From: Hypomesus transpacificus
Lineage: Eukaryota > Chordata > Actinopteri > Osmeriformes > Osmeridae
Assembly (NCBI RefSeq): GCF_021917145.1
Contig: NC_061063.1
Location: forward strand, 1,018,930 to 1,082,929
Direction of reading: 5' to 3'
Length of the DNA: 64,000 nt
The notes beneath the pieces are model-generated. The model did no database searches. It had not been told where the DNA came from and was given only the letters and a program-made list of their open reading frames with translations. A program made the translations under genes and the position numbers. Numbering within the stretch: the first letter of the stretch is position 1; each line of letters starts with the position of its first letter. Of the stretch, positions 4,193-53,923 are shown in pieces.

Positions 4193-4195
<3 letters not shown>

Positions 4196-4238
<43 letters not shown>
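4196..4238. repeat. (GT)n microsatellite
   Basis: Uninterrupted GT dinucleotides of about 42 bp. Confidence 0.9.
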
Positions 4239-4241
<3 letters not shown>

Positions 4242-4759
4242 TCCATGTGTTTTAACAGGACAATTGGTCAGAATACACACCACACTAGAAGGACATTTTG
4301 AATTAACAGGACAGGAGCAGTGTCCTGCTAATTTCGACAAAATTCTAAAAGTGTAGAATGGTTTCTATTGGTCCATTAACCCTAAAAATGCAAAAAAACC
4401 AAGATGTCCGTTTAATACATATAAACATGATTTGTGTGTAAAATCTGTGTATCACCACAGCGCCCCCTACGGCAGGTTGTGTACTAGCAGGACTTCATGA
4501 ATATGCACACAGCGTCTTATGCTGATTGGTTGTCTGCCGGAAGGTCCTGATAATTACTACACTGTCCTTCCAATTCAAGTCGCTATTTACACAGGGGATG
4601 AGTTAGCAATACGATAAAAGCAAAATGTATTATAAACCATGTATCTTGAAATATTGAATGAAATTAACAAAATATTACGTAAGTGAGTTGTTTTCTTCTT
4701 CCTGAATAAATCAAACTATGCTCTTTAGAAACGAAAAAGGAATTCTTATTTTGTCATAC

Positions 4760-4862
4760 CCCTCCTCTTCTATCAACGTGGTACAATCCGTCAAGTTTTG
4801 CCGCGAAACATTAGTACTTTCTAATTGAACACCTCTCATCCCTGCATGCGTGGAGGACGAGG
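4760..4862 (+). other. candidate non-coding first exon of the exon-array gene
   Basis: A GAGGACGAG|GTAAGA donor lies at 4862/4863. The phase-0 frame that would join the downstream array has a TGA shortly upstream and no ATG. The ATG at about 4848 would run into a stop in the next exon. If this exon is used it is therefore probably 5' UTR. Its upstream limit is unknown; 4760 is only a placeholder. Confidence 0.3.
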
Positions 4863-5286
4863 TAAGACCCATTTAATATTCTTTACACATTTAGGTACAT
4901 ATTGTTATGTAATCTGCTAAAACAATGACTAAAGGTAAATTATGCAGAATGGATTAGGTTACTTGATGTTTGTATGCACCAAAACATCTGATCTATGACA
5001 GTTTAGCTAGTTATTAGCAAGTGGCCAGTGACGTGCGGTGAGGTTCTTGGCTGGGGAGGCACGTAGGCATACTGACTCTTTCAAAATCAGATTTACAAAT
5101 ATATTTATTCAACAGAGCAGCTGCTTGCACATAGACTAATGGTTATGTTTCATATCCCTAACAAGTAACACTAGCAGGTAGTAGCATTGCTACGAGTATT
5201 ATGCTAGGTTGCTAGGTAACCGAAGCTAACTAGAGCTAGCTAGCTTCCGTTTTGGAAAATAACATCTAATATCATTAAATCATATT

Positions 5287-8200
5287 GTATACTGAAATTA
5301 CATGTACAAAGAAATGAAAGTACATTAAGAAGTGCGCAGACACACAGGTCCTGTGTAATACTCAACATGTAAGGTGCAGGAATAAGGAAGACTGAGTTTT
5401 GAAATTACATGTACAGAGGAATGAAAGTACATTAAGAAGTGCGCAGACACACAGGTCCTGTGTAATACTCAACATGTAAGGTGCAGGAATAAGGAGGACT
5501 GAGTACTGTACATGAGAAACAAACTCTCATTCAGTGATTGTTCTTTACATCTCAGATCTCCAAAGAGATGCCATGCCAGGCTGAGGATGTGGACGCATGC
5601 GGATCCTTTTCAGGCAACACACTAGAGGTAAGTTTCATCTTTTAAGGCATATTTATTGTCTAAAATAAAGTCATGAGAATGATATTCAGAAGTATTCAGA
5701 CACACAAGTACGATGTAACCTTTATATGTAAGGTGCAGGAATTTGGAGGATTGAGTTTTGAAATTACATGTACAAAGGAATGAAAGTACATTAAGAAGTG
5801 CGCAGACACACAGGTCCTGTGTAATACTCAACATGTAAGGTGCAGGAATAAGGAGGACTGAGTACTGTACATGAGAAACAAACTCTCATTCAGTGATTGT
5901 TCTTTACATCTCAGATCTCCAAAGAGATGCCATGCCAGGCTGAGGATGTGGACGCATGCGGATCCTTTTCAGGCAACACACTAAAGGTAAGTTTAATCTT
6001 TCTAAGGCTTATTTATTGTCTAAAATAAAGTCATGAGAATGATATTCAGCAGTATTCAGACACACAGGTACGATATAACCTTAATATGTAAGATGCTGGA
6101 ATTTGGAGGACTGAATTTTGAAATTACATGTACAGAGGAATGAAAGTACATTAAGAAGTGCGCAGACACACAGGTCCTGTGTAATACTCAACATGTAAGG
6201 TGCAGGAATAAGGAGGACTGAGTACTGTACATGAGAAACAAACTCTCATTCAGTGATTGTTCTTTACATCTCAGATCTCCAAAGAGATGCCATGCCAGGC
6301 TGAGGATGTGGACGCATGCGGATCCTTTTCAGGCAACACACTAGAGGTAAGTTTCATCTTTTAAGGCATATTTATTGTCTAAAATAAAGTCATGAGAATG
6401 ATATTCAGAAGTATTCAGACACACAAGTACGATGTAACCTTTATATGTAAGGTGCAGGAATTTAGAGGATTGAGTTTTGAAATTACATGTACAAAGGAAT
6501 GAAAGTACATTAAGAAGTGCGCAGACACACAGGTCCTGTGTAATACTCAACATGTAAGGTGCAGGAATAAGGAGGACTGAGTTTTGCAACACACATGTAA
6601 GGTGCAGGAATAAGGAGGACTGAGTTTTGAAATTACATGTACAGAGGAATGAAAGTACATTAAGAAGTGCGCAGACACACAGGTCCTGTGTAATACTCAA
6701 CATGTAAGGTGCAGGAATAAGGAGGACTGAGTACTGTACATGAGAAACAAACTCTCATTCAGTGATTGTTCTTTACATCTCAGATCTCCAAAGAGATGCC
6801 ATGCCAGGCTGAGGATGTGGACGCATGCGGATCCTTTTCAGGCAACACACTAGAGGTAAGTTTCATCTTTTAAGGCATATTTATTGTCTAAAATAAAGTC
6901 ATGAGAATGATATTCAGAAGTATTCAGACACACAAGTACGATGTAACCTTTATATGTAAGGTGCAGGAATTTGGAGGATTGAAGTTTTGAAATTACATGT
7001 ACAAGAGGAATGAAAGTACATTAAGAAGTGCGCAGACACACAGGTCCTGTGTAATACTCAACATGTAAGGTGCAGGAATAAGGAGGACTGAGTACTGTAC
7101 ATGAGAAACAAACTCTCATTCAGTGATTGTTCTTTACATCTCAGATCTCCAAAGAGATGCCATGCCAGGCTGAGGATGTGGACGCATGCGGATCCTTTTC
7201 AGGCAACACACTAGAGGTAAGTTTAATCTTTCTAAGGCTTATTTATTGTCTAAAATAAAGTCATGAGAATGATATTCAGCAGTATTCAGACACACAGGTA
7301 CGATATAACCTTAATATGTAAGATGCTGGAATTTGGAGGACTGAATTTTGAAATTACATGTACAGAGGAATGAAAGTACATTAAGAAGTGCGCAGACACA
7401 TAGGTCCTGTGTAATACTCAACATGTAAGGTGCAGGAATAAGGAGGACTGAGTACTGTACATGAGAAACAAACTCTCATTCAGTGATTGTTCTTTACATC
7501 TCAGATCTCCAAAGAGATGCCATGCCAGGCTGAGGATGTGGACGCATGCGGATCCTTTTCAGGCAACACACTAGAGGTAAGTTTCATATTTTAAGGCATA
7601 TTTATTGTCTAAAATAAAGTCAGGAGAATGATATTCAACAGTATTCAGACACACAGGTACGATGTAACCTTAATATGTAAGGTGCAGGAATTTGGAGGAC
7701 TGAGATTTGAAATTACATGTACAAAGGAATGAAAGTACATTAAGAAGTGCGCAGACACACAGGTCCTGTGTAATACTCAACATGTAAGGTGCAGGAATAA
7801 GGAGGACTGAGTACTGTACATGAGAAACAAACTCTCATTCAGTGATTGTTCTTTACATCTCAGATCTCCAAAGAGATGCCATGCCAGGCTGAGGATGTGG
7901 ACGCATGCGGATCCTTTTCAGGCAACACACTAGAGGTAAGTTTCATCTTTTAAGGCATATTTATTGTCTAAAATAAAGTCATGAGAATGATATTCAGAAG
8001 TATTCAGACACACAAGTACGATGTAACCTTTATATGTAAGGTGCAGGAATTTAAAGGATTGAGTTTTGAAATTACATGTACAAAGGAATGAAAGTACATT
8101 AAGAAGTGCGCAGACACACAGGTCCTGTGTAATACTCAACATGTAAGGTGCAGGAATAAGGAGGACTGAGTTTTGAAATTACATGTACAGAGGAATGAAA

Positions 8201-10372
8201 GTACATTAAGAAGTGCGCAGACACACAGGTCCTGTGTAATACTCAACATGTAAGGTGCAGGAATAAGGAGGACTGAGTACTGTACATGAGAAACAAACTC
8301 TCATTCAGTGATTGTTCTTTACATCTCAGATCTCCAAAGAGATGCCATGCCAGGCTGAGGATGTGGACGCATGCGGATCCTTTTCAGGCAACACACTAGA
8401 GGTAAGTTTCATCTTTTAAGGCATATTTATTGTCTAAAATAAAGTCATGAGAATGATATTCAGAAGTATTCAGACACACAAGTACGATGTAACCTTTATA
8501 TGTAAGGTGCAGGAATTTGGAGGATTGAGTTTTGAAATTACATGTACAAAGGAATGAAAGTACATTAAGAAGTGCGCAGACACACAGGTCCTGTGTAATA
8601 CTCAACATGTAAGGTGCAGGAATAAGGAGGACTGAGTACTGTACATGAGAAACAAACTCTCATTCAGTGATTGTTCTTTACATCTCAGATCTCCAAAGAG
8701 ATGCCATGCCAGGCTGAGGATGTGGACGCATGCGGATCCTTTTCAGGCAACACACTAGAGGTAAGTTTAATCTTTCTAAGGCTTATTCATTGTCTAAAAT
8801 AAAGTCATGAGAATGATATTCAGCAGTATTCAGACACACAGGTACGATATAACCTTAATATGTAAGATGCTGGAATTTGGAGGACTGAATTTTGAAATTA
8901 CATGTACAGAGGAATGAAAGTACATTAAGAAGTGCGCAGACACATAGGTCCTGTGTAATACTCAACATGTAAGGTGCAGGAATAAGGAGGACTGAGTACT
9001 GTACATGAGAAACAAACTCTCATTCAGTGATTGTTCTTTACATCTCAGATCTCCAAAGAGATGCCATGCCAGGCTGAGGATGTGGACGCATGCGGATCCT
9101 TTTCAGGCAACACACTAGAGGTAAGTTTCATATTTTAAGGCATATTTATTGTCTAAAATAAAGTCAGGAGAATGATATTCAACAGTATTCAGACACACAG
9201 GTACGATGTAACCTTAATATGTAAGGTGCAGGAATTTGGAGGACTGAGATTTGAAATTACATGTACAAAGGAATGAAAGTACATTAAGAAGTGCGCAGAC
9301 ACACAGGTCCTGTGTAATACTCAACATGTAAGGTGCAGGAATAAGGAGGACTGAGTACTGTACATGAGAAACAAACTCTCATTCAGTGATTGTTCTTTAC
9401 ATCTCAGATCTCCAAAGAGATGCCATGCCAGGCTGAGGATGTGGACGCATGCGGATCCTTTTCAGGCAACACACTAGAGGTAAGTTTCATCTTTTAAGGC
9501 ATATTTATTGTCTAAAATAAAGTCATGAGAATGATATTCAGAAGTATTCAGACACACAAGTACGATGTAACCTTTATATGTAAGGTGCAGGAATTTAAAG
9601 GATTGAGTTTTGAAATTACATGTACAAAGGAATGAAAGTACATTAAGAAGTGCGCAGACACACAGGTCCTGTGTAATACTCAACATGTAAGGTGCAGGAA
9701 TAAGGAGGACTGAGTTTTGAAATTACATGTACAGAGGAATGAAAGTACATTAAGAAGTGCGCAGACACACAGGTCCTGTGTAATACTCAACATGTAAGGT
9801 GCAGGAATAAGGAGGACTGAGTACTGTACATGAGAAACAAACTCTCATTCAGTGATTGTTCTTTACATCTCAGATCTCCAAAGAGATGCCATGCCAGGCT
9901 GAGGATGTGGACGCATGCGGATCCTTTTCAGGCAACACACTAGAGGTAAGTTTCATATTTTAAGGCATATTTATTGTCTAAAATAAAGTCAGGAGAATGA
10001 TATTCAACAGTATTCAGACACACAGGTACGATGTAACCTTAATATGTAAGGTGCAGGAATTTGGAGGACTGAGATTTGAAATTACATGTACAAAGGAATG
10101 AAAGTACATTAAGAAGTGCGCAGACACACAGGTCCTGTGTAATACTCAACATGTAAGGTGCAGGAATAAGGAGGACTGAGTACTGTACATGAGAAACAAA
10201 CTCTCATTCAGTGATTGTTCTTTACATCTCAGATCTCCAAAGAGATGCCATGCCAGGCTGAGGATGTGGACGCATGCGGATCCTTTTCAGGCAACACACT
10301 AGAGGTAAGTTTCATCTTTTAAGGCATATTTATTGTCCAAAATAAAGTCATGAGAATGATATTCAGCAGTTA
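5287..10372 (+). repeat. tandem exon-containing repeat array with higher-order structure
   Basis: Units of about 360 bp each carry one 72-bp exon plus intron. Spacings between exon starts are 359, 360, 509, 361, 360, 359, 466, 359, 360, 359, 466 and 359. The longer units hold an extra copy of a roughly 107-bp intronic sub-repeat containing GTGCGCAGACACACAGG. Three intron types follow the exons: A (GTAAGTTTCATCT), B (GTAAGTTTAATCT) and C (GTAAGTTTCATAT). Their order is A B A' A B C A' A B C A' C A, where A' is the longer form, so a four-unit block of about 1.55 kb has itself been duplicated. Two exon-less sub-repeats lead in at 5287-5510. Confidence 0.92.
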
Positions 10373-11890
10373 TACATTAACTTTATTTAAATCTGAATTC
10401 ATAAGAATTGCATTCAGCTGTGTATAGATTCACAGGTTTTTTTTTTTTTTTTGAGATAGCAATTGAGTGCTCATGCAAACAGACATCCACAGTTGGTTTG
10501 CGTTCTACTCGTGGGCCTCTATGAAGTCACATACAAAGATGGCAAAGGGTGCCGTATGCCAATTAGATTTTTCAACGTTTCCTGGTTTATTCTGTGAAAG
10601 TCTGCTTTTGTCCAAACTTAACTGCATGTGCCAAATGACACATGCAGTGACATGACATGGCAAAGGTAACTTAAGTTAACCAAACTTTCTCTGTAATACT
10701 CATCTTTATTTCTATGTATGTAATGAAGTATATTATATTTTATTACAGGTTGTGCAAGAACTGTTGATGGTCGGGCAACCTGTCGAGGAACCTGCGCCAT
10801 TATCACAAGGTTAACTCTTATCCTCAGTCTACATGTCACCTTCTTTGATTGCTTTTAGGCTATGAAATAATGCATTGTGGATTCAGACCTTCTTCACTCG
10901 TTTCAATGTTGTTGTCACGGCAACAGTTCAGGTAAATGGGAGGCATGTAAGCTAAATTTCAAGTGATGTGAATGTAGATTACAGAAGTAGTAGCTTTAAC
11001 CGATGACCAGGAAATTATTTTCAATCTAACAATGAACTTTTTGAATACATTACAGTGCAACAAGGAACATATAGGCCTGGCTGCTGCTCTTCAGTACGCA
11101 CGACAGCAACGACACTGCCTTCAAAATAAAAGCACTTCTAATCATATCATTCATAATGACAAATCAACTTGGAAGCAAATAATGTTCCAGCCTAAGCGCT
11201 TTACAGTGAATGTATTTGTTATTTATTATTCATCCATCAGTTGCTTGAGCATCTTGGACTTCACCGTATTTAAGGACCCTACCCTACAACAAATAAATGC
11301 TCATCCATTGTTATTTGTCTTTATTTCTTCATTTCAGCACAAAGTCAACACACAGATGCTAAGGGGGAAGAACCCAACAGAAGACTAAAAAAGAAGGACA
11401 AAGGGCCCAGCAGAAAAAAGAACACGAAGAAACATTCTGGTAAATGCGAAAACACATACTCAGTCACTAAACACCAAGTTACTTAAGTATAACTGAAGAA
11501 TGATAAAAATAAATTATCCATACCACCCAAAGGCAATATGATGACCATTCTCTTCTTTCTGCGGGATACTGTTTATACTACTACTACTATTCCTTATTTA
11601 AAACATGTTTAAAGTGGAGTTGGTTTTCATTGATTTATTTGTCTTTTTTTCTAGTATCTCTGGAAAGTGCCAGGAGAGCAAAAAAGCATCTTTGGTCTCC
11701 CATGGAGGTTGCCGCAGTCATGAGACATTTTGGCCAACACATCAAAAAAGGGAAACTGGCCACTATGATTGAATGCCAGCAATGCAAGAAGGCTGAAAAT
11801 CTTGCTCTGGCTGGTCGCTCTATCCAAAACATAAGAGATTTTGTAAGGAATCGGGGCGTAACTTTGAAAAGAAAAGAAAATCCTGGATAG
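5568..11890 (+). CDS. uncharacterised protein: tandem 24-aa exon repeats plus Myb/SANT-like C-terminal domain
   Basis: I do not recognise a named gene. Thirteen 72-bp exons (5556-5627, 5915-5986, 6275-6346, 6784-6855, 7145-7216, 7505-7576, 7864-7935, 8330-8401, 8689-8760, 9049-9120, 9408-9479, 9874-9945, 10233-10304) each follow TTTACATCTCAG and precede GTAAGT. Each is open only in phase 0 and encodes 24 residues starting ISKEMPCQAED and ending SFSGNTLE. They join in frame to 10749-10809 (VVQELLMVG...), 11338-11439 (Lys-rich linker, RLKKKDKGPSRKK) and 11655-11890 (stop TAG). The last exon encodes LWSPMEVAAVMRHF, an ECQQC pair and SIQNIRDFVRNRG, like the C-terminal domain of multicopy teleost proteins that I compare by memory only to Myb/SANT folds. 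The start shown is the first ATG in copy 1 (G at -3) and is inferred. All copies spliced would give about 440 aa. How many copies are used is unknown, and nuclear or DNA-binding activity is inference. Confidence 0.65.
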
Positions 11891-11935
11891 ATACAACACC
11901 CTGCAGCAGAGCTGAAACATATCCAACATCACATC

Positions 11936-12293
11936 CTACATCACACCCAACATCACATCCAACATCCCATCCATGACATCTAACACCATACAGCTACAGT
12001 ACATCACATCCAACATCACATCTAACACCATACAGCTACAGTACTTCACATCCAACATCACATCTAACACCATACAGCTACAGTACATCCCATCCAACAT
12101 CACATCTAACACCACACAGCTACAGTACATCCCATCCAACACCACATCTAACACCACACTGCTACAGTACATCCCATCCAACATCACATCTAACACCACA
12201 CAGCTACAGTACATCACATCCAACATCACATCTAACACCATACAGCTACAGTACATCACATCCAACATCACATCTAACACCACATCCAACACC
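11936..12293. repeat. 42-bp minisatellite just after the stop codon
   Basis: About seven copies of a 42-bp unit built on ACAGCTACAGTACATC and CATCTAACACCA start roughly 50 bp after the stop of the exon-array gene, with shorter related CATCCAACAT motifs at both ends. The period is a multiple of three, so it stays open in two frames. Position and low complexity suggest 3' UTR, not coding. Confidence 0.85.
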
Positions 12294-12698
12294 AGGCCTG
12301 TTGTAACTGGAACACTGTTAGACATGCATTGGTCTAGTAGACATGCATAATTTCATTTTGACATTTATAAATGTTTTCCTTTCTGTTCACAAATACATTT
12401 CTGTTGCTCTGATATGTGGTCAAGGCGCTGTAAAATCCAGTCTACTTCTTTCTGTTTAGTCATATTCCATTTATCCATGTTTGGCCTTTTTAATACACAT
12501 AAACTTCACGTTTGTGTATGTGTATGGCTATGGTCCTGATAAAAAAGATGGTCCTGGCAATTACTGTTTGTGTCATGGGCGGAGCTAAGTACCTCATTAT
12601 CTTGTGTCCTCTTAATACAGCATTCCGTCAGGTTCTTGTATCTTGAGTTCTGATGTGTGTATCTAACTTTTGAAGTGAGATTTGTGCTGTATGGCTCA

Positions 12699-12704
12699 AA
12701 TAAA
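12699..12704 (+). terminator. candidate polyadenylation signal for the exon-array gene
   Basis: AATAAA about 0.8 kb past the stop at 11890, with no other gene between. Confidence 0.4.
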
Positions 12705-12810
12705 ATTTTTGAAGATTCACTACATCTTTCTAGCATAAGTGGAAAGAGGTGTCCGTTTAGTGTTGCAAAAAACTGGTTTGAAAAAATTGTCCCTCTAATA
12801 CATAAGGACC

Positions 12811-12912
<102 letters not shown>

Positions 12913-14328: not shown

Positions 14329-15612
14329 TTTGAGGCAGGTGTGCTGGAGTGGTGTGGCAGTGAAGACCTACCAGAAGGTATCTCTCCAGGAACAGGGTTA
14401 AAGAGCCCTTCTCACTTAGGTAAGAGAACAGTGTTCAATAATTGTTCTTGATCGTTCCACAACTATTTAGTTGTAGATACAAGTCTTTTGTCTCCTCGCC
14501 TCCTCTTATTTTCCTGAGTGAGTGTATGCCAGTTGGACCAGCACTTCACCACACTCGTTTTTGACATTCGATGTAGCCTATGTGTACGTGTACCAATCAA
14601 AACGTTCTTCTGTTGCCATGTTACACACGGTTCTGTGTAAGATGTTTAAGGTTTCCAACATCCCTTTTCACAGGGTATGGAGCAAATGCATTAATTCTCA
14701 AATGTGTAGTATACAGGTTGAATACTTTGCAAAGAAATACTTTGCAGCTCTTTCAACTGAGAAATAAAAGTTATGAAAGTGCAAGAGGTAAAAGAGGGAA
14801 ATAAGGGGCTTATGCTCGAGTGATGTGCCAAAGTCAGTGCAAGTTGCCTTTGGGACTAATAGGAGCATGTCGTGCAATTTTGTCATTGTGTGCACTGTGC
14901 AAATGAGATGCTAGTTTTGTCAGGCCCCTGGACGTTACAGTTCAAAGCTCGGAGGTAGAAACCCATTTTTCGCAAACATTTGACTCCAAGGCATTCTGTC
15001 TCTCCCCTTCCCATCCTGTCTATCATCCTCTCTTCTCCCATACCTTGTTCTCTCCCTCTGTCGTTTTCTCTCATCCTTTCATCCCCTGCTCTGTGCAATC
15101 CCTCAGGTCAGAGGGAGCTAGCTAGCTAACCGTCTGCCATCACCTAAACAAGACACAACGCTTATGCTAATGCCTATGATTCATTGCGAGGGCCTAACAG
15201 CTTGACCTAGCCCGCTAAGCTAAATTCTAAGCCAGTATGCACACCGACCTGCACTGAATCTAAACAGCTAGCGCGACAGGCTAATTGGTATTGATGGTGA
15301 AGGCTCGGGACAATAAGCAGCGAGCACGGCATGCCAGCAATCTCTCTCCAAACCAGAAATAACCTGGAGGTGTTCTGTTTGCTGTTTTATGCTATTATTG
15401 TTGCACCCTGTCTCATAGTTGAGAGATGTTATTTTGCATTGTGCCTGGTAAATACAGAGCGTTCCTTAACTCCTTATCATTTACTATAGGTACTATTCGT
15501 ATATTGGTTAAGACAAGTGTTGAATGAAACACATTTCAAATGAAACAAAGACTCCCTTTGTTGTGTGTGTGTGTGTGTGTGTGTGGAAACCGGTGGCTGT
15601 TGGGTCGTATTT
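14329..15612. other. no gene seen between the inverted elements
   Basis: About 1.3 kb of unique-looking sequence separates the two inverted elements, with one short GT run at 15563-15585. No exon with good splice sites or a recognisable protein was found. Confidence 0.5.
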
Positions 15613-43670: not shown

Positions 43671-46499
43671 TTAGTCCCCGTTCGAGTCTGTGTCGTCGTT
43701 AATGTAGTCCTCCTCCACGGGCGAGCCCCCGTTCTGCGCCCCCCACTCGTCCTCGTCGTACTCTATGCTGTCATTATCCTCCAGCAGCTCGTTCTCGGGC
43801 TCCGCCCCACCTGCCGCCGCCGCCTCCTCCGCCAGCTGCCGCTCGCCAAAGTCCCCGGGGTCCTCCTCGCCACCGGGGGCGGCGTAGCCGTTGTTGTTGG
43901 AGAAGGGCGCCCGGTCGCGGCCCTCCTCCTCGATGTAGACCTTCTGGTGGCACATGGGGCACGTGTCCTGGATGTAAAGCCACTTGCGGAGGCAGAGGGC
44001 GTGGAAGTAGTGGTGGCACGGCGTGAGGCGGGCCGACGTGGCAAACTCCTGGTAGCAGATGGCGCACACGTCCTCGATGTCGCGCAGCTCCTCGCCCTTC
44101 ATCTCCGGCAGGGAGTTGATCTTCTTCACGGCCGTGCGGCGGTTGATGAACGTCTTCCAGCCGTTCTTGGCCTGCAGGTAGATGTTGAAGTAGGCGTGGA
44201 GGCACATCATGCACGCCCGGATCTTGCTGCCCGACTCGAACGCCATGGTGTACGCCCCGTTGCCGAACATGATCACGCCGAACACAAACTCGACGACATT
44301 GCCCGACGAGCGCACGTAGTACACGTAGTCGTCCAGCTTCTCCCACAGGACGTTGTGGTAGCCGTCCACCATGAAGAGGCCGTACACCGTCAGGGACACC
44401 AGCACCTTCAAGCACAGCTCCACGCAGAAGGCCGTGACGGCAAACAGCCAGGTGTTGAGCTCGTAGAGGTGCCACAGCGCGTAGCTCAGCGCCACCGGGA
44501 GGGCGAAGAGGCTCAGCGACACCAGGAGCACGGGGAAGTGGCGGCGGAAGGAGGAGACGTGGGAGGCGCTCAGCGACATCAGGACCGGGTCGGTCATGCC
44601 GTGGATGAAGTGCAGGATGGCGGTGAGCAGGAGGCACATGTTGCGGCTGAGGCGCACGAGGCGGTCCTCGGGGTCCAGGCCGCTTAGGCCCGTCTGCAGG
44701 GCCAGGATGAAGAAGAGGACGGGCGCCACGAAGCCCAGCCGCTTGTCCTCCTCCTCGGTGGAGCCGATGAAGGCCAGGATGCTCAGGCCCAGGTAGTGGG
44801 CGAGGGACGAGATGACGGCGCTCATGCCCAGCACGGTCAGCGTCGAGTCGCAGCCGCTGATGATCAGGTTGCTGAACAGGTCCCAGAACACGTCCCGCGT
44901 CAAGTAGCCGTGGGGATCGCCGCCGCCCCCGCCGACGTCGACGCCCACCCCGGCGCTCTCGTGGCGCACGGCCCGGACCACGTACACCAGGATGATGGCC
45001 TGCGCCGTGACGCGAGTCAGCCAGAACACCCTCAACACGTCCGGGAAGCGAATCCTCTTCCACGTGTCCTCCACCAGGAGCTGCAGCCCGTAGATGCGGT
45101 ACATGTGCCGGACGAGCAGGTAGACGTAGCGGCACGAGTAGTAGAACCACTTGAGCTTCAGCGCCAGACACACGGCCGTGTGGAGGGCCAGGGCCAGGCC
45201 CGACGCCACGGCCACCAGTTGCCTCACGTCCACGGGCAGCTGGAGGATCAGCCCCCACAGGGGGATCATGATGTCCAGCACCACCAGGGCGGCGCACACG
45301 GACTGGATGTTGAGCAGGAAGACGTAGCCCATGCCAAACACCAGCTGCAGCACCGCCATGCCCAGCCAAAGGGTGGGGCCGTTCCTGGGCAGCAGGCGGA
45401 AGCCCAGAGCCGCTTTGTAGTAGGCGCTGTAGAAGTCTATGTGGGAGGTGGCGTAGTAGTTGATCAGGACGGCCACCATTCCCAGGAGCACGGCGAAGAA
45501 GAGAGTGTAGAACTTGAACAGGGCCTTCTGGGAAAGGACCAGCACCACACTGGACACTAGGATGCCTGAGGGAAACGGGATAAACAAGATTATATATGTG
45601 CCTCCTGAGCAAAAACACACACACACAACAATAGAGGGGTATGATGCCGATGTTCAAACGTCCAACATTTCTGAGCATTGGAAAACACAAGCAGAAAAAC
45701 GGAATGGTATAACGCCATGTAAGGTTGACGTTTATCCATAGAGTAACCTTGTAAAGTAGACGTTCATTTATCTCCCTTACAACCAGTTCGCTGAACTGTG
45801 GAGCTGTAGTGTAAACATAAATGAGGTCGGAGTGCAAATACCCAACCGAGGGCCTCTATGAGTTTCTGACAGCTGTGAGTGATGGCTGCACTGCAGCCAC
45901 GTCCTGTATTTAGCTAACTAACCTAGATATCTAAAACTACGTCAACAGTCCATTTATGGCCTGAGATTAGCGCACTGCCTACTGTACCTGTCGATTAACT
46001 GGCTAGCTCAGCTAGCTACTGTTGCTATCTCGCTAGCATACTTACAGGAATAGGTCACTATATTGTGGCAACGTGGGCTAAAAACATGTGCCTGCATAAC
46101 ATGTCATTTAAGGGTTTACTAGCTGTGTCACATGAAAAAGCACTTTTATGTTGTTTCCGCCAGTAACTAAATCGGCTTCGCGAGGAGTAAAGTGCAAGAG
46201 GCCATTGACAGGTGAGCGTCTCACTGCGCATGTTAGCTAGCTAGCTGTCATTTTTTCTGAGCGCGGATGACAGTGGTTGTCAGTGAAAAGCGTTGTAGCT
46301 TGCTAAACCGAGTTGTAAAACACGCATTCGTCTTACCCATGACTCTGACAAAAATCTTTCCTGCTGTCCCGGCCCATCCTGACCCGGGATCATAGTAAGA
46401 GTTAAAAATGGCGTCGATAATAAAGATGCAAGGGACGCGAAGTGCCACATCCAGCACCGCCAAGGCCTGTTGGCTGATCCGGATCTGAGCGGACGCCAT
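43671..46499 (-). CDS. rnf139: E3 ubiquitin ligase RNF139 / TRC8 (2 exons)
   Basis: RNF139 is a multi-pass ER membrane RING E3 ligase acting in ER-associated degradation and sterol-linked control. Exon 1 is 46499-46337 (MASAQIRISQQALAVLDV..., 54 codons plus 1 base); exon 2 is 45565-43671. The total is 685 aa, against 664 in human. Exon 2 encodes a long run of hydrophobic spans (for example TLFFAVLLGMVAVLINYY, VFLLNIQSVCAALVVLDI). The RING-H2 is at residues 555-594: CAIC, then TPCHHYFHALC, then CPMC, with all eight metal ligands present. The acidic C-terminus ends DDTDSNGD. A Gly-rich insert (VGVDVGGGGGDPHG) sits in a loop. The start was chosen at the ATG opening exon 1; the frame upstream of the exon 2 acceptor is intronic. 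Two-exon structure and sequence make this a firm call. Confidence 0.97.
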
Positions 46500-47282: not shown

Positions 47283-50200
47283 TCAGCTCCCTGTGAAGAA
47301 CACTTTCACCGTGTTGTTGTAGATGGTGTCGGCCATCTCTGCCGGGTCCTCGTTCCTGGACGCTGCCATGACTTCTAGCACTTGTCTGACACGTGAAGAG
47401 ACAGCAATGAAGTACCGTTATACACGCAAAGTATCTCTAATGGAAACTGGAAAGTGGTTTCAGCCATGGTATATCATCCATATTCTATGGTCATCAGTCG
47501 ATGACATTACTACAAACGCAACACATATGACCTTTTTTTCCTGTGCTGAAACAGTGAAGTACAACTACAAGACTTATCACTATCACACCAGAGAGAGGCG
47601 CAATGGAGGCCCAAAGGGAAGGAACTGGAACAGAAGCATCTCGAGAACATGCTGAAAGAGTTCCAGCATGAGTTCTACATTCAATTCAACAATGATTGAA
47701 TGAATGATTAATGACTGAATTAATTCACTTTTAGAATCGATAGCTGGGTAAACCTTAAACTGGAGAACCCTGCTCCTGGAGATTTACCCTCCTGTAGCCC
47801 TACCCTCCAAATCCACTCCAAAAACATGATTTAGCTCATCAACCACAAGATGATGAGAATCAGGTGGGTTGGAATGAGGGTAGATGTCTTTATCATCCTC
47901 TCTTTCACCTTCCTTTTCTCTAATTTCCTCCCTCCTCTCATGACTCGTCCCTCCATCTACCCCTTCCTTCCAATTTCCCTCCTCCGCTAGACTGCCTTCC
48001 TTTCCTCCCTCTATCCATCCCTCCTTCCCTTGCTCCATCCATCTATCCCCCCCCTCCATCTCTCCCTCCCGCCTCCAGGTACACCTACATGATGTGGGAG
48101 GGCTCGTTCCTGTCCTTCAGACAGTGTCCCTCCTCCCATTTCTTCTTGGTGGGAAACGTAGTCCTGATGTGTTTGGAGCCTGCGTGAGTGTTCTTTACCC
48201 CGCACCAAGGTGCATCTAGGGGAACACACAACCATCAGTACTCCAACAGCTCTCTTTGGAAAACACACACACATCAGTACCGCCACCTGTCCTTCTCCTT
48301 GCCTTGGCCTATACATTTACATTTAGTCATTTAGCAGACGCTCGTATCCAGAGCGACTTACACTAAGTAGAGGGACATTCCCCCGAGGCAAGTAGGGTGA
48401 AGTGCCTTGCCCAAGGACACAACGTAATTTTCACAGCCGGTAATTGAACCGGCAACCTTCTGATTACTAGCCCGATTCCCTAACCGCTCAGCCACCTGAC
48501 TATATATGAACTGGAAGATTCTTCATAAAAAGTTACAGAGTCAGAGGATCTGTGCACTTCTGAGGAACTAATGTATAAATGGAGGCTTATAGGGAAGAGA
48601 TGGATGAGCGGTGAGGGAGTCGGGCTAGTAATCGGGCTAGTAATCAGAAGGTTGCCGGATCGATTCCCCGCCGTGCAAAATGACGTTGTGTCCGGGCAAG
48701 GCACTTCACCCTACTTGCCTCGGGGGGGGATGTCCCTGTACTTACTGTAAGTCGATCTGGATGAGAGCGTCTGCTAAATGACTGAATGTAAATGTAAAGA
48801 GAATTAAGGAGAGACGGAGGGAGGGGTTAACACACCAGTCTCTATCATCAGTCTCTCAGTGGGGATGGACTTCATGGCCTCGATATTCGCTTCCGTTTTC
48901 AGGGAACTGAAAGTAAATGAGAGCCACTTAAGAGGAATTCGGAACCAGGCAACTTAGAAGTCACATCTATCTTCCGGAGAATTCGTTTTGAACCCTGGAC
49001 TGTGACGGTTCGCTAGTCTCTTACCAGCCATTGATTCCGATGTACAGATCCAGATCTACAAGAGCAGCTGCATCTTCTGCACTGCCATCGAAGGAGTGGA
49101 CCTGCAGCAGGGATGGAAGGTGGTCGAGGAACGTGCCCGGATGGTTGTGAACTTTGGAACAAGCAGGGCATCTACATGTACATCCCAAGCTAGCCCAGGA
49201 GAGTATAGCACAGTGGTAGAGCATTTGACTGAACCTCAAGAAATCACAGGTTCAAATCCCCTGCACTTTGCATTGGTCAAATGCGTCTACTAAATCAATA
49301 CATTTGAGATATAAAGATGATGTTAAAAAGATGATGAAGTTTAAGATTGTCAGCGAAGGCCTTTGCGACTCGTGGGGGATTACAGTTAAGATGGATTTGA
49401 TTGAAGGTGTGTGGTTCCACAGGGAAACATGCGACACGTTAGCCAGACAGTGTTCTTACCACGCCTCCTACACATCGGCCCCTGTTCCTCTTCATGATGT
49501 CTGTGGACGTCAAGACAAATTCACCATTGTAATTATGTAAGCAATAAGGTCATGTTAATCATGTATGCAATAAGCTAATACATATCTGAATATAAGTCAT
49601 AAGATAATTTAATCATGTAATACATATTCAATAAGGTAGTATATGTCAAATAATTGAAAGAATACCTATAGTTAATTTGTATTTATGTACATATCTTTAC
49701 TATGATTGTAATAAGAGGACAGTTCCTTTAGGTGGTTTTGTTTACAGGTACACAAACCTAGGAACTGCTGGTGGGAGTTCCTACAGTGGAGGAACATGGG
49801 CAGTTTGGTCTCCTCAGCCAGGTCAAACTGCTTCTCAAAATACCTGGTGGGACCCCAGAGGTCACAACAGGGCCTGACTCACACATCCCACAATCCCCAG
49901 TACAAGAGGACGGCCTGACTCACATATCCCACAATCCCCAATACAAGAGGACGGCTTGACTCACATATCCCACAATCCCCAATACGAGAGGACGGCCTGA
50001 CTCACTTCATCTGAGTTTCCTTCGGACAGAATTCCAGTCGGTCGAAATCTGAGATGGTCAAAAAGAGAAAGAGGGATGAAGCCTCGTGCTTAATATCCTT
50101 CTAATGTATACACAGACACTGTTCCTACCTTCTAATGTATACACAGACACTGTTCCTACCTTCTAATGTATACACAGACACTGTTCCTACCTTCTAATGT

Positions 50201-52222
50201 ATACACAGACACTGTTCCTACCTTTCTAATGTATACACAGACACTGTTCCTACCTTCTAATGTATACACAGACACTGTTCCTACCTTCTAATGTATACAC
50301 AGACACTGTTCCTACCTTCTAATGTATACACAGACACTGTTCCTACCTTCTAATGTATACACAGACACTGTTCCTACCTTCTAATGTATACACAGACACT
50401 GTTCCTACCTTCTAATGTATACACAGACACTGTTCCTACCTTCTAATGTATACACAGACACGGTTCCTACCTTCTAATGTATACACAGACACTGTTTCTA
50501 CTTGGTTGAGGTATTATTTGTGTTGCACTGCCTGGTAGTTCAGATGTGGTTATTTGACTCTGCCAAGTAAATACAGACTATTCCTTGATTCAGACCACCA
50601 AAATACTGTGAGAACTATCGTGCACATGTGATCCTGGACTTCCTATATAATCATGCTGTACTTTCTATATGCGCTGTTGTGTGAATAAAGGTGTATGCTC
50701 AATGAATAACGGGTTGACAGTAATGTTGTAAACTGCTGACACATGCCCTCACGCCATACTAGGTGGGACAAAGTGGAGTGCGGCAGTGTTCTGACACCTC
50801 ACCTAGTCCACATTCCCCGATGGCCACCACCTTCCCTCTGCTGGCTGTGGCCAGCTCCCTCAGACCAGACAGGTACTGGTCAGGTCCGTTCTGGTCAAAC
50901 TCCCCACAGCGTGTCGGATGGCACCCCACTGTGCTGTAGAACCCCTCTGTTCAGGTGTGTGTGGGGGGGGAGGGGGGGGGTCAACACAGACTTCTTAAAA
51001 TCAACTAATAACCCAGTCAACTTGATCAGTAAATAACGTTTATTTTTATTTTTATTGATCACTTCTTATGACCAGTTGTAGATCGATCAGGAAATTAGAA
51101 AATGTGTATTTCTGTGACAGTGTCTTTTTTATTTTATTGATTTACTCTGACCAGAAGTCTGTGTAGTCATGCATCACCTCTGGACTCTGCTAGTGTCAGG
51201 GCCTCCTTGCTGTCCTCCAGACTTCCCCCTGTGATCATGAACTGCAAAAACACAGAGTTTAAACACTGTCCCTGGTGAGGGAGAAACCAAACTTCAATAG
51301 CCAGCTGGCTGAGAGGTTAGGGAATCGGGCTAGTAATCTGAAGGTTGCCAGTTCGATTCCCGTGCCAAATGACGGTGTGTCCTTGGGCAAGGCACTACAC
51401 CCTACTTGCCTCGGGGGAATGTCCCTGTACTTACTGTAAGTCGCTCTGGATATGAGCGTCTGCTAAATGACTAAATGTCTAAATGTAAATAACACTGTTT
51501 TCTTTCAGCAAACAATATAGTTTAGGTAGGATCTGTGAATCTGTGACGTTTACATCTATAGGCATCTGTGTAACTCTTTACCTATACAGATCAATATTAT
51601 TTGATGATATATTATCGCCATGCACCAAAATGACATGACAAACCTACCTTTTGGACCCCAACTTTCACAGCTCTGTCGATAACCTGATCAAAGTCATCTG
51701 ATGAGAGGAATACGGTCTGTTAAGAGTTGATTCCGTCAGCCTGACATCGGATCCTTGGCTAACCTACAGTAGCTATGCAATGTCCAACAGCAGCACACTG
51801 ACTGAGTAGATACTCACCATTATGTTTCTGCTTGCCTCTGTAGAGACCCCTGAACATGGGATCTGTCAGATTGATACCGATGTCTGAACAGGAGAACGGT
51901 TTGCGTCATCATCATCATCATTAACACCATCATTCAACTACATTCAATTCAGTACATCCTCATCATTGACATATTAGATAGGGTAACCTTTTATTCATGT
52001 TGAATGTTACTTTATTTGTAAAATAAAAAACTGCTGTTGTTGAGGTATTGAAAACATGCTAGCAGATAAGCTAGCTAGTGTGTCACTTCTGTAGAAAAAA
52101 ACATCTTTAGAACAGATACAGTACAGTAGACGTGCAGATGCAGTTAGCATTGTCTGATATCGGATGCATGAACTAACGCATGTTTGTTGTGTATACTTAC
52201 CTATAAACTTGAAGTGTGTCAT
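47283..52222 (-). CDS. tatdn1: TatD-family deoxyribonuclease TATDN1 (12 exons)
   Basis: TATDN1 is a metal-dependent nuclease of the TatD amidohydrolase family. Exons 5' to 3': 52222-52201, 51883-51818, 51697-51648, 51241-51178, 50946-50803, 50048-50006, 49843-49758, 49500-49460, 49101-49025, 48906-48836, 48215-48089, 47385-47283. Phases close to 894 nt, 297 aa, the human length. Motifs in order: [94 protein letters not shown]; the His, Glu and Asp metal ligands of the family are present. It ends VKVFFTGS. Exon 11 uses a GTAGGT donor after CACATCAT; reading on would meet TAG at once. Exon 7 has a weak GTTTGT donor. MTHFKFI was chosen as start by family length; an in-frame ATG lies 33 bp upstream. 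Confidence 0.97.
48313..48500 (-). mobile_element. tRNA-derived SINE
   Basis: Reverse-oriented copy of the 13288 family: tail CATTTAGCAGACGCT complement at the left, head TCAGCCACCTGACT complement at the right. In tatdn1 intron 10. Confidence 0.85.
48598..48798 (+). mobile_element. tRNA-derived SINE with a short head duplication
   Basis: Same family. The segment ATCGGGCTAGTA is tandemly duplicated in the head. It lies just downstream of tatdn1 exon 10 on the minus strand and only 98 bp from the oppositely oriented SINE at 48313. Confidence 0.85.
49199..49310 (+). mobile_element. tRNA-Cys-like SINE fragment
   Basis: TATAGCACAGTGGTAGAGCA then TTTGACTG and GGTTCAAATCCC match the A-box and B-box regions of tRNA-Cys. 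The anticodon arm is degraded and the acceptor ends do not pair, so it is not a working tRNA. A tail with AATGCGTCTACTAAAT follows. Confidence 0.6.
49870..50003. repeat. about 42-bp minisatellite next to tatdn1 exon 6
   Basis: Three to four copies of a unit with GCCTGACTCACATATCCC and AATCCCCAATACAAGAGGAC. On the minus strand each copy carries GTGAGTCAGGCC, the exact donor sequence of exon 6 (50006-50048). Confidence 0.85.
50096..50502. repeat. 31-bp minisatellite, about 13 copies
   Basis: Near-identical units of CTTCTAATGTATACACAGAC plus ACTGTTCCTAC in tatdn1 intron 5. The high identity points to a young, probably length-variable array. Confidence 0.93.
51298..51490 (+). mobile_element. tRNA-derived SINE
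   Basis: Same family as 13288, with AGTTCGATTCC B box and tail GCGTCTGCTAAATGACTAAA. In tatdn1 intron 3. Confidence 0.85.
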
Positions 52223-52567: not shown

Positions 52568-53923
52568 ATGGCAACTGCGTATCTTACCCACCACCAAAAA
52601 GTCCTGCGGCTTTACAAAAAGTCGTTGAGGCACCTGGAATCATGGTGCATATTCAGGTGAGTGAAGGTTCGGAGTTTTCGCCCTACATATTTGGGTTAAA
52701 CAACGTGAAGCGTGCTGTGGTAGGCCCATCGGAATCAACTGATCTTAGCAAGCAACACTAGCTATCTTAGCTTTTTTTGCCAGCTAGGTCACCTACTCTC
52801 GTCAGCCTAGTGTTAGCTAGCCATCTGGCCCGGACTAGCGCCATCAAACCAATCCAATGTTATTGTTATTGTGGCCCGGCAAGTTACTAAGAGATAATAT
52901 TGTTTAATAGGAAGCTACGTGTTTTCCGTCTGCATCTGCAATTATGACATTTTAGGGCTCGTAGTGTTCAGTCTGCTTTTGCATATTGGTACGATTTTAC
53001 AGCTAATCCTATGTACGTTGTTGTTGACGATGATGATGATCCGGTGAACGTTGTTTTTAGGGACAAGTACCGATTTTACGCGTGCATGCTGAGGGCGCGC
53101 TTCGATGACAACATGGGCGAGAAAGATATGGTGAAAGCTACCAAGATGCTGAAGGCAGGGGAAGAGGAGTTCTGGGCCAACCAGCACCCGCAGCCCTACC
53201 TCTTCCCCGACTCTCCCGGAGGAACCTCATACGAGAGATACGAATGCTACAAGGTAACAGGTTCATGTTGCATCCACACCAGTTTGTGTCTCTCCTGTGG
53301 TTAACGTTACGCAGCTTCAGTAGGAGCAGTATGTTCGGGGTTTGTTTATGTGAGTTGAGTTTAAAAGAGACTGACAGAAATGTGTGAGAAAGGCAGAGGC
53401 GTAACGTGAGGTCTGTGTTATTGTGTCCTGGCCCCAGGTTCCAGAGTGGTGTCTGGATCACTGGCACCCCTCTGAGAAGGCCATGTACCCTGACTACTTT
53501 GCCAAGCGGGAGCAGTGGAAGAAACTGAGGGAGCAGAGCTGGGACAGGGAGGTAGGCTGTCGCCCAACCAGAACCCTCACATCAACCCTCCTTTGCTGTG
53601 TCTTTTGTTGCTTTAAGTTTCAAACCATATCTCCTCCCCTCCCCCTCCCCCCCCCCCCCCTCCTCACCTGTCTCCCATCCTGTCCACTCCCCTCCCATCC
53701 TCTCTCCTCTCCCATCCTCTTCCCTCCCATTCTCTCTCCTCTTCCCTCCCATCCTCTCTCCTCTCCCCTCCCGTCACTCTCCCCTCCTCAGGTCCAGCAG
53801 CTGGAGGCAGAGACCCCCGCGGACGGGCCCAAGTCCGAGGCTCTCCCCCCGGCCCGCAAGGAGGGCGACCTCCCCCCTCTGTGGTGGCAGTACGTCACCC
53901 GCCCCAGGGAGCGCCCCGTCTAA
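52568..53923 (+). CDS. ndufb9: NADH:ubiquinone oxidoreductase subunit B9 (4 exons)
   Basis: NDUFB9 is an accessory LYR-motif subunit of mitochondrial complex I on the inner membrane. Exons: 52568-52656, 53061-53253, 53438-53551, 53792-53923. They total 528 nt, 175 aa (human 179). The N-terminus [20 protein letters not shown] holds the LYR/LYK motif. Then come [52 protein letters not shown] and [18 protein letters not shown]. It ends [17 protein letters not shown]. All junctions are GT-AG with matching phase. The start ATG follows GGGGAAA (A at -3). Confidence 0.97.

Follow-up and report, generated by a model that had tools for sequence, protein, structure and literature searches.

Repeat-exon array and its gene in the window

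The window analysed here is the whole 64,000-nucleotide stretch at positions 1,018,930 to 1,082,929 of contig NC_061063.1 (forward strand) in the Hypomesus transpacificus assembly GCF_021917145.1, and it contains a tandem array of 72-bp exons which, together with the neighbouring exons, was found to belong to a dispersed mobile element. A search of the entire window with the 72-mer (both strands, up to 24 mismatches) returned exactly 13 matches (Table 1), 12 of them identical and the second differing by one base at exon position 70 (window 5984, GAG to AAG), which changes the last codon from glutamate to lysine. The acceptor TTTACATCTCAG and the donor GTAAGT are present at 13/13 exons, so that the number of copies, the single variant and the intact splice signals described in an earlier note, made from the letters of this DNA, were all recovered. 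Each exon has 24 codons and phase 0 at both ends. The statement of the same note that the exon is open in one frame only holds for the forward strand, where frame 0 alone is open, but fails on the reverse strand, which has two open frames out of three; an open frame of 24 codons is consequently of little weight when taken by itself. The array is built from units of 359-360 bp and has inserts of either 107 or 150 bp; a tandem repeat (minisatellite) of 107 bp is nested inside the introns, and a higher-order repeat of four units spans about 1544 bp. In line with the earlier note, which knew of no named family, none could be assigned to the 24-aa repeat: Pfam gave sub-cut-off matches only, the best of which, with three repeats joined (0.00084, 19.6 bits against a cut-off of 21), was taken as chance and rejected as a name.

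From the array the frame runs without a stop through the three downstream exons to a TAG in the last one, in agreement with the earlier reading. If the presumed 5' exon is spliced to the array as exon 1, translation from the first ATG (4846) would give a peptide of 14 residues in another frame, and an in-frame ATG is first reached at codon 5 of repeat 1. As read, the window gene is without a good start codon, and a protein made of the repeats and the C-terminal domain is possible from this copy but not favoured, because the out-of-frame ATG precedes the in-frame one. The last exon is predicted by a single-sequence model to be all helical, with moderate confidence and a pTM of 0.42, a value too low for comparison with known folds; its C-terminal domain gave no Pfam match and nothing better than 0.15 among PDB sequences. 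A 42-bp minisatellite lies 3' of the stop codon (window 11921-12291), and it may vary in length, since the match between copies breaks there.

Dispersed copies and their flanks

When window positions 5000-11000 were searched against the assembly from which the window comes (376 contigs, 437 Mb), at least 65 stretches matched, the long ones mostly at 96-99% identity, on the contigs designated C4, C9, C14, C19, C22, C23, C73, C94, C201, C353, C366 and C374. Ten copies with their flanks, a relic on C374, five further arrays and one more were compared along with the window copy. Homology between copies starts at about 4239 and ends at about 12812 in window coordinates, and the flanks outside these limits differ. 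Since the dispersed copies share their ends and have differing flanks, the array belongs to a mobile element. Among the 11 left and 10 right flanks compared, a set outside which fell the right ends of C4c, C9, C201, C19a, C19b and C23b, the only shared flank was the right one of C94 and C353 (887 bp at 99.7%); these two copies have no left flank in common and, given the right flank, may be one locus. C353 is also irregular in its array, where intron lengths are one base off, and its left flank is not rich in TG; this copy may represent an allele, a rearrangement or an assembly fault.

A 27-base core of the exon, allowed up to 3 mismatches, had 211 matches genome-wide against 0 for a reversed-pattern control. 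The assembly holds 18 copies of the element, namely eight long, nine short and the relic. Long copies have 17, 13, 13, 13, 13, 18, 11 and 14 repeat exons (112); the short ones have 13 in the window, 14 and 13 on C22, 9 on C9, 7 on C201, 8 and 7 in the two copies on C19, 9 in C23b and 15 in C4c (95), the last being 14 in the piece examined and 15 in the genome-wide core listing; and the relic has 4. Non-relic copies other than that of the window thus carry 7-18 identical-type exons each, with their splice signals in cis. The three sums add up to the 211 core matches, an agreement of totals rather than one established place by place, so that no exon core is left outside the element. The earlier note had placed the array in an ordinary protein gene, and a host gene whose mini-exon array encoded a 24-aa repeat module of variable length would indeed display the exon anatomy, the intact splice signals and the frame open to a stop. 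However, the same exons recur in 18 dispersed copies with common ends and differing flanks, the core is not in excess of the element copies, and the window copy is without the start exon of the long form. A host gene with a private repeat was rejected after the genome searches and, being largely refuted, is regarded as highly improbable.

In almost all copies the element is bordered by TG-rich sequence. On its + strand, 10/11 left flanks have a TG/GT dinucleotide share of at least 0.64 and 10/10 right flanks of at least 0.72, as compared with the rest of the window, where a share of 0.5 is attained by about 2% of 40-mers and one of 0.7 by about 0.5%. Another six left flanks were inspected by eye: five appeared TG-like, and one was unreadable. 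A search for terminal inverted repeats gave a best inverted end match scoring 13, where shuffles averaged 10.5 and reached 19.

Long form and its predicted protein

The eight long copies (12.6-15.5 kb) match the window up to 10440 and again from 10453, after about 3.5 kb of extra sequence, and carry a further 1.3 kb or so between the left part and the array; the splice sites of the extra exons were read by eye. Their start exon (MAGTRPQRAK...) runs into a SET domain (Pfam, 6.1e-20) whose nearest PDB entries are KMT5A/SETD8 (6.2e-23 over 113 residues), and the three exons with the start codon and the SET domain do not differ between any of the eight long copies. Methyltransferase activity of this domain is uncertain, because its NHS-type motif reads NDE. 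The last SET exon ends in phase 0 before the array and the exon after the array begins in phase 0. A C1 zinc finger was recovered above the cut-off (2.5e-7) only when two post-array exons were joined, the unjoined frames giving none. It is followed by an open frame of 713 aa, whose Phage_integrase match in Pfam lies below the cut-off (0.0017, 18.6 bits against 27.1) and in which the motifs RRRGGE, LRKH, LGH and REYY were read by eye. These we take to be tyrosine recombinase boxes, and the frame is a probable tyrosine recombinase of predicted activity. The long gene, assembled with a single repeat exon, has no stop anywhere from its start exon by way of SET and the finger to the recombinase. 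Six of the eight long copies have the same 713-aa frame; in C4b its end differs, and no motif-bearing frame of 300 codons was found in C353. In the relic, the recombinase exon is split by an insert of about 1.1 kb (5861-6949 of the C374 piece, reverse complement), and the 8 kb examined showed no SET exons and neither end of the element. Neither the C-terminal part nor the recombinase had a match confirmed among viral contigs.

After the recombinase, a second in-frame repeat, an exon of acidic six-residue (EVDAES)n units, was observed in C94 (oriented 15172-15369). The window copy is the short form, which retains exon 1, the array and the three 3'-terminal exons and is without the start-codon, SET, C1-finger and recombinase exons.

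Copy-number dynamics of the array

Seven of the eight long copies have 0 mutual substitutions over 2341 bp to the left and 5803-5841 bp to the right of the array, C4b differing from the others by 2 substitutions on the left and 8-9 on the right. These seven copies nevertheless range from 11 to 18 exons, by whole units. With no substitutions outside the array and differing exon numbers within it, whole units are gained and lost faster than bases change, and the earlier suggestion that symmetric phase-0 exons could come and go without breaking the frame finds its counterpart among the dispersed copies.

Such differences might mostly be assembly error in a near-identical tandem repeat. The units are nearly identical, the one-base intron irregularities of C353 occur on a contig of 39.9 kb, and C94 and C353 agree on one flank and not on the other, all of which would suit an assembly fault. 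On the other hand, C73, C23a and C4a, at different sites, have one and the same string of intron types (12 introns), and that of C14 equals it with one inserted unit; the short copies C9 and C23b, with different flanks, have the same 9-exon array at 99.86%; and counts running from 4 to 18 over 18 copies would require many independent errors. Assembly error as the main source of the differences is therefore considered quite improbable, though individual arrays may contain such errors. The intron-type strings further show that the C94 array gained repeated pairs of units.

Exon versus intron variation

Variable sites were counted in 197 units of 16 copies, between -104 and +60 relative to the exon, the relic being kept apart and C23b, outside this set, showing only variants seen already. 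Over all units, 5/72 exon sites, 2/26 splice-signal sites and 30/138 intron sites vary (P=0.006). The difference lies with the long copies (112 units), where 1/72 exon sites (a synonymous change), 0/26 splice-signal sites and 20/138 intron sites vary (P=0.0014), as opposed to 4/72 (all nonsynonymous), 2/26 and 12/138 in the short ones (85 units, P=0.59). Exon changes were five synonymous to one nonsynonymous in the long copies and the relic, against 0 to 4 in the short copies (P=0.048); this count is soft evidence, because the relic supplies most of the synonymous changes, is broken and changed roughly neutrally elsewhere. Two earlier versions of these tests were set aside: a count of 7 exon changes (2 nonsynonymous, P 0.007-0.02) failed once more short copies had been added, and a site count over 152 units (2/72 exon against 18/137 intron sites, two-sided P=0.014) was replaced by the present one. 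These patterns suggest that the repeat is probably translated in the long copies and free to drift in the short ones, including that of the window.

The same data bear on the possibility that the array is non-coding, its exons being skipped in all transcripts, either as a satellite grown in an intron of the transposon gene or with a role as DNA, for example as binding sites. The flanking exons are phase-compatible, so that skipping would cost nothing; the invariance seen in the window reaches into the upstream intron; exons of the short copies vary like introns, with 4/4 changes nonsynonymous; and the constraint in the long copies hangs on C353 and C4b. Yet the near absence of variable exon and splice-signal sites among the long copies, whose 112 exons all retain frame and splice signals, speaks for coding exons, and a non-coding array is judged unlikely.

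Proposed origin of the array

Taken together, the common ends, TG-rich flanks and exon anatomy of the copies make it probable that the array is an internal exon block in the gene of a Crypton-like DNA transposon which inserts into TG microsatellites, the array in the window being a passenger. The long gene would encode, in order, the start exon, the KMT5A-like SET domain, n 24-aa repeats, the C1 finger, the probable recombinase, the acidic repeats, the lysine-rich exon and the C-terminal domain. Any n keeps the frame, because the repeat exons are 0/0 in phase and their neighbours join at phase 0; and since the SET-repeat-finger junctions are all phase 0, a change in copy number and the skipping of an exon would both be silent to the frame. 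When spliced in, each repeat exon would add 24 residues between the SET portion and the portion with finger and recombinase, and the repeats probably serve as a length-tolerant linker between the two. The near-identical introns and the nested 107-bp minisatellite would supply homology for unequal exchange or slippage, and the length of the homology offered by such introns would let n shift quickly with the rest of the element constant. The recombinase of the long copies presumably moves both forms into TG tracts, the window copy being a short derivative in which the array is carried along.

Several observations weigh against this interpretation. The right end of C22b was not found within the piece examined, and the left flank of C353 has a TG/GT share of 0.26. 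For the recombinase, no integrase match was obtained among PDB sequences (best CENP-T, 0.58), in PHROGs or in phages, and NCBIfam returned an unrelated match only (0.077); its evidence consists of the sub-threshold Pfam match and the motifs read by eye. Repeat counts come from one assembly. When C353 is removed, the long copies show 0/72 variable exon sites against 9/138 intron sites (P=0.029), and when C4b is removed as well, 0/72 against 5/138 (P=0.17); taken singly, long copies are significant in C353 only. Pooled exon changes are 5/10 nonsynonymous (P=0.075), of the 5 synonymous exon changes 4 come from the relic, and the other coding exons of this broken copy have 12 nonsynonymous and 5 synonymous changes, which is about neutral.

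A more far-reaching idea is that the array acts as a hypermutable length dial between the SET-like domain and the recombinase, its copy number shifting more rapidly than any base in the rest of the element, selection on active copies reading linker length or recombinase output and each insertion sampling a different protein; this is regarded as decidedly unlikely.

As to what the transposon-borne array would mean, separate and otherwise identical insertions here allow one to follow how the number of repeats changes within a coding region. If the array is translated, a transposon would vary its protein without frameshift and would combine, in one gene, a chromatin-type domain with a probable tyrosine recombinase. 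A conspicuous array of exons in a raw window may thus be transposon-borne.

Other features of the window

Host genes occupy other parts of the window, in regions at about 17.7-33 kb (+) and 56-63 kb (-). An RNF139/TRC8-like gene is found at 43671-45653 (-) (TRC8_N, 1.6e-173) and a semaphorin gene at 52948-53923 (+) (Sema, 1e-17), and NDUFB9-like and MTSS1-like exons were recognised by eye. The order of RNF139, NDUFB9 and MTSS1 resembles that of human 8q24 and, with the TRC8_N and Sema matches, would suit a host among ray-finned fish. A 31-bp tandem repeat unrelated to the element (13 copies at 98%) lies at 50097-50501, and in the left part of the element a stretch of about 105 bp (5158-5263), which may be a small repeat that was inserted, has further matches of 96-97% at six unrelated genomic sites. 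Features of the element and its borders are listed in Table 1.

Table 1. Positions in the window of the mobile element, its exons and its flanking tracts.
Feature	Position	Strand	Basis
Left flanking (GT)n tract, likely target	4195..4242	.	
Entire mobile element in its short form (ends accurate to within a few bases)	4239..12812	+	homology limits between dispersed copies
Presumed 5' exon, start tentative, end 4861 before GTAAGA	4741..4861	+	read from sequence
107-bp minisatellite as in the array introns, two copies	5293..5504	+	
Repeat exon 1	5556..5627	+	72-mer match
Repeat exon 2 (E to K, last codon)	5915..5986	+	72-mer match
Repeat exon 3	6275..6346	+	72-mer match
Repeat exon 4	6784..6855	+	72-mer match
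Repeat exon 5	7145..7216	+	72-mer match
Repeat exon 6	7505..7576	+	72-mer match
Repeat exon 7	7864..7935	+	72-mer match
Repeat exon 8	8330..8401	+	72-mer match
Repeat exon 9	8689..8760	+	72-mer match
Repeat exon 10	9049..9120	+	72-mer match
Repeat exon 11	9408..9479	+	72-mer match
Repeat exon 12	9874..9945	+	72-mer match
Repeat exon 13	10233..10304	+	72-mer match
Site, within a T run, of the extra 3.5 kb or so of the long copies (C1-finger and recombinase exons)	10440..10453	+	
Exon VVQELL..., entered in phase 0 and left in phase 1	10749..10809	+	
Lysine-rich exon, phase 1 in and out	11338..11439	+	
Last exon with stop TAG, small C-terminal domain	11655..11890	+	
Right flanking (TG)n tract, likely target	12811..12906	.	

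Comparison with known systems

Among the open-access matches listed, with Repbase Reports outside the scope, no title or abstract mentioned transposons that carry exon arrays, or Cryptons that carry SET domains. Tandem symmetric exons are known from other settings. In schistosome micro-exon genes and in the kringle exons of apolipoprotein(a), their copy number can change without loss of frame; unlike the array, these are host genes and encode unrelated proteins. The precursor genes of frog caerulein and magainin are described as containing tandemly duplicated exons for nearly identical peptides, and in this they are like the array (PMC3899252). They are, in contrast, host secretory genes and not mobile. 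We know of no sequence relation between them and the array.

Capture of SET genes by DNA transposons is described for HarbingerS and MuDR elements of Phytophthora, which likewise carry a SET histone-methyltransferase-like domain (PMC12730594). Those elements differ from the present one in transposase type and host, the SET domain being here in frame with the probable recombinase.

The nearest likeness is to Cryptons. A 2022 paper describes some CryptonV families, which are tyrosine-recombinase DNA transposons, as inserting specifically in microsatellites (PMC8869645), and the likely TG-tract insertion of the element matches that targeting. Animal Cryptons are described as having no terminal repeats, non-autonomous derivatives are given for medaka, and CryptonA and CryptonI of animals are described as having no C-terminal domain (PMC3212892). 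With its probable tyrosine recombinase, no clear terminal inverted repeats and non-autonomous forms, the element resembles them and is perhaps close to CryptonV. It is named Crypton-like, rather than a member of the Cryptons, because the integrase match is weak and Crypton features were compared by description only; by those descriptions it is set apart by its KMT5A-like SET domain, C1 finger, C-terminal domain and exon array.

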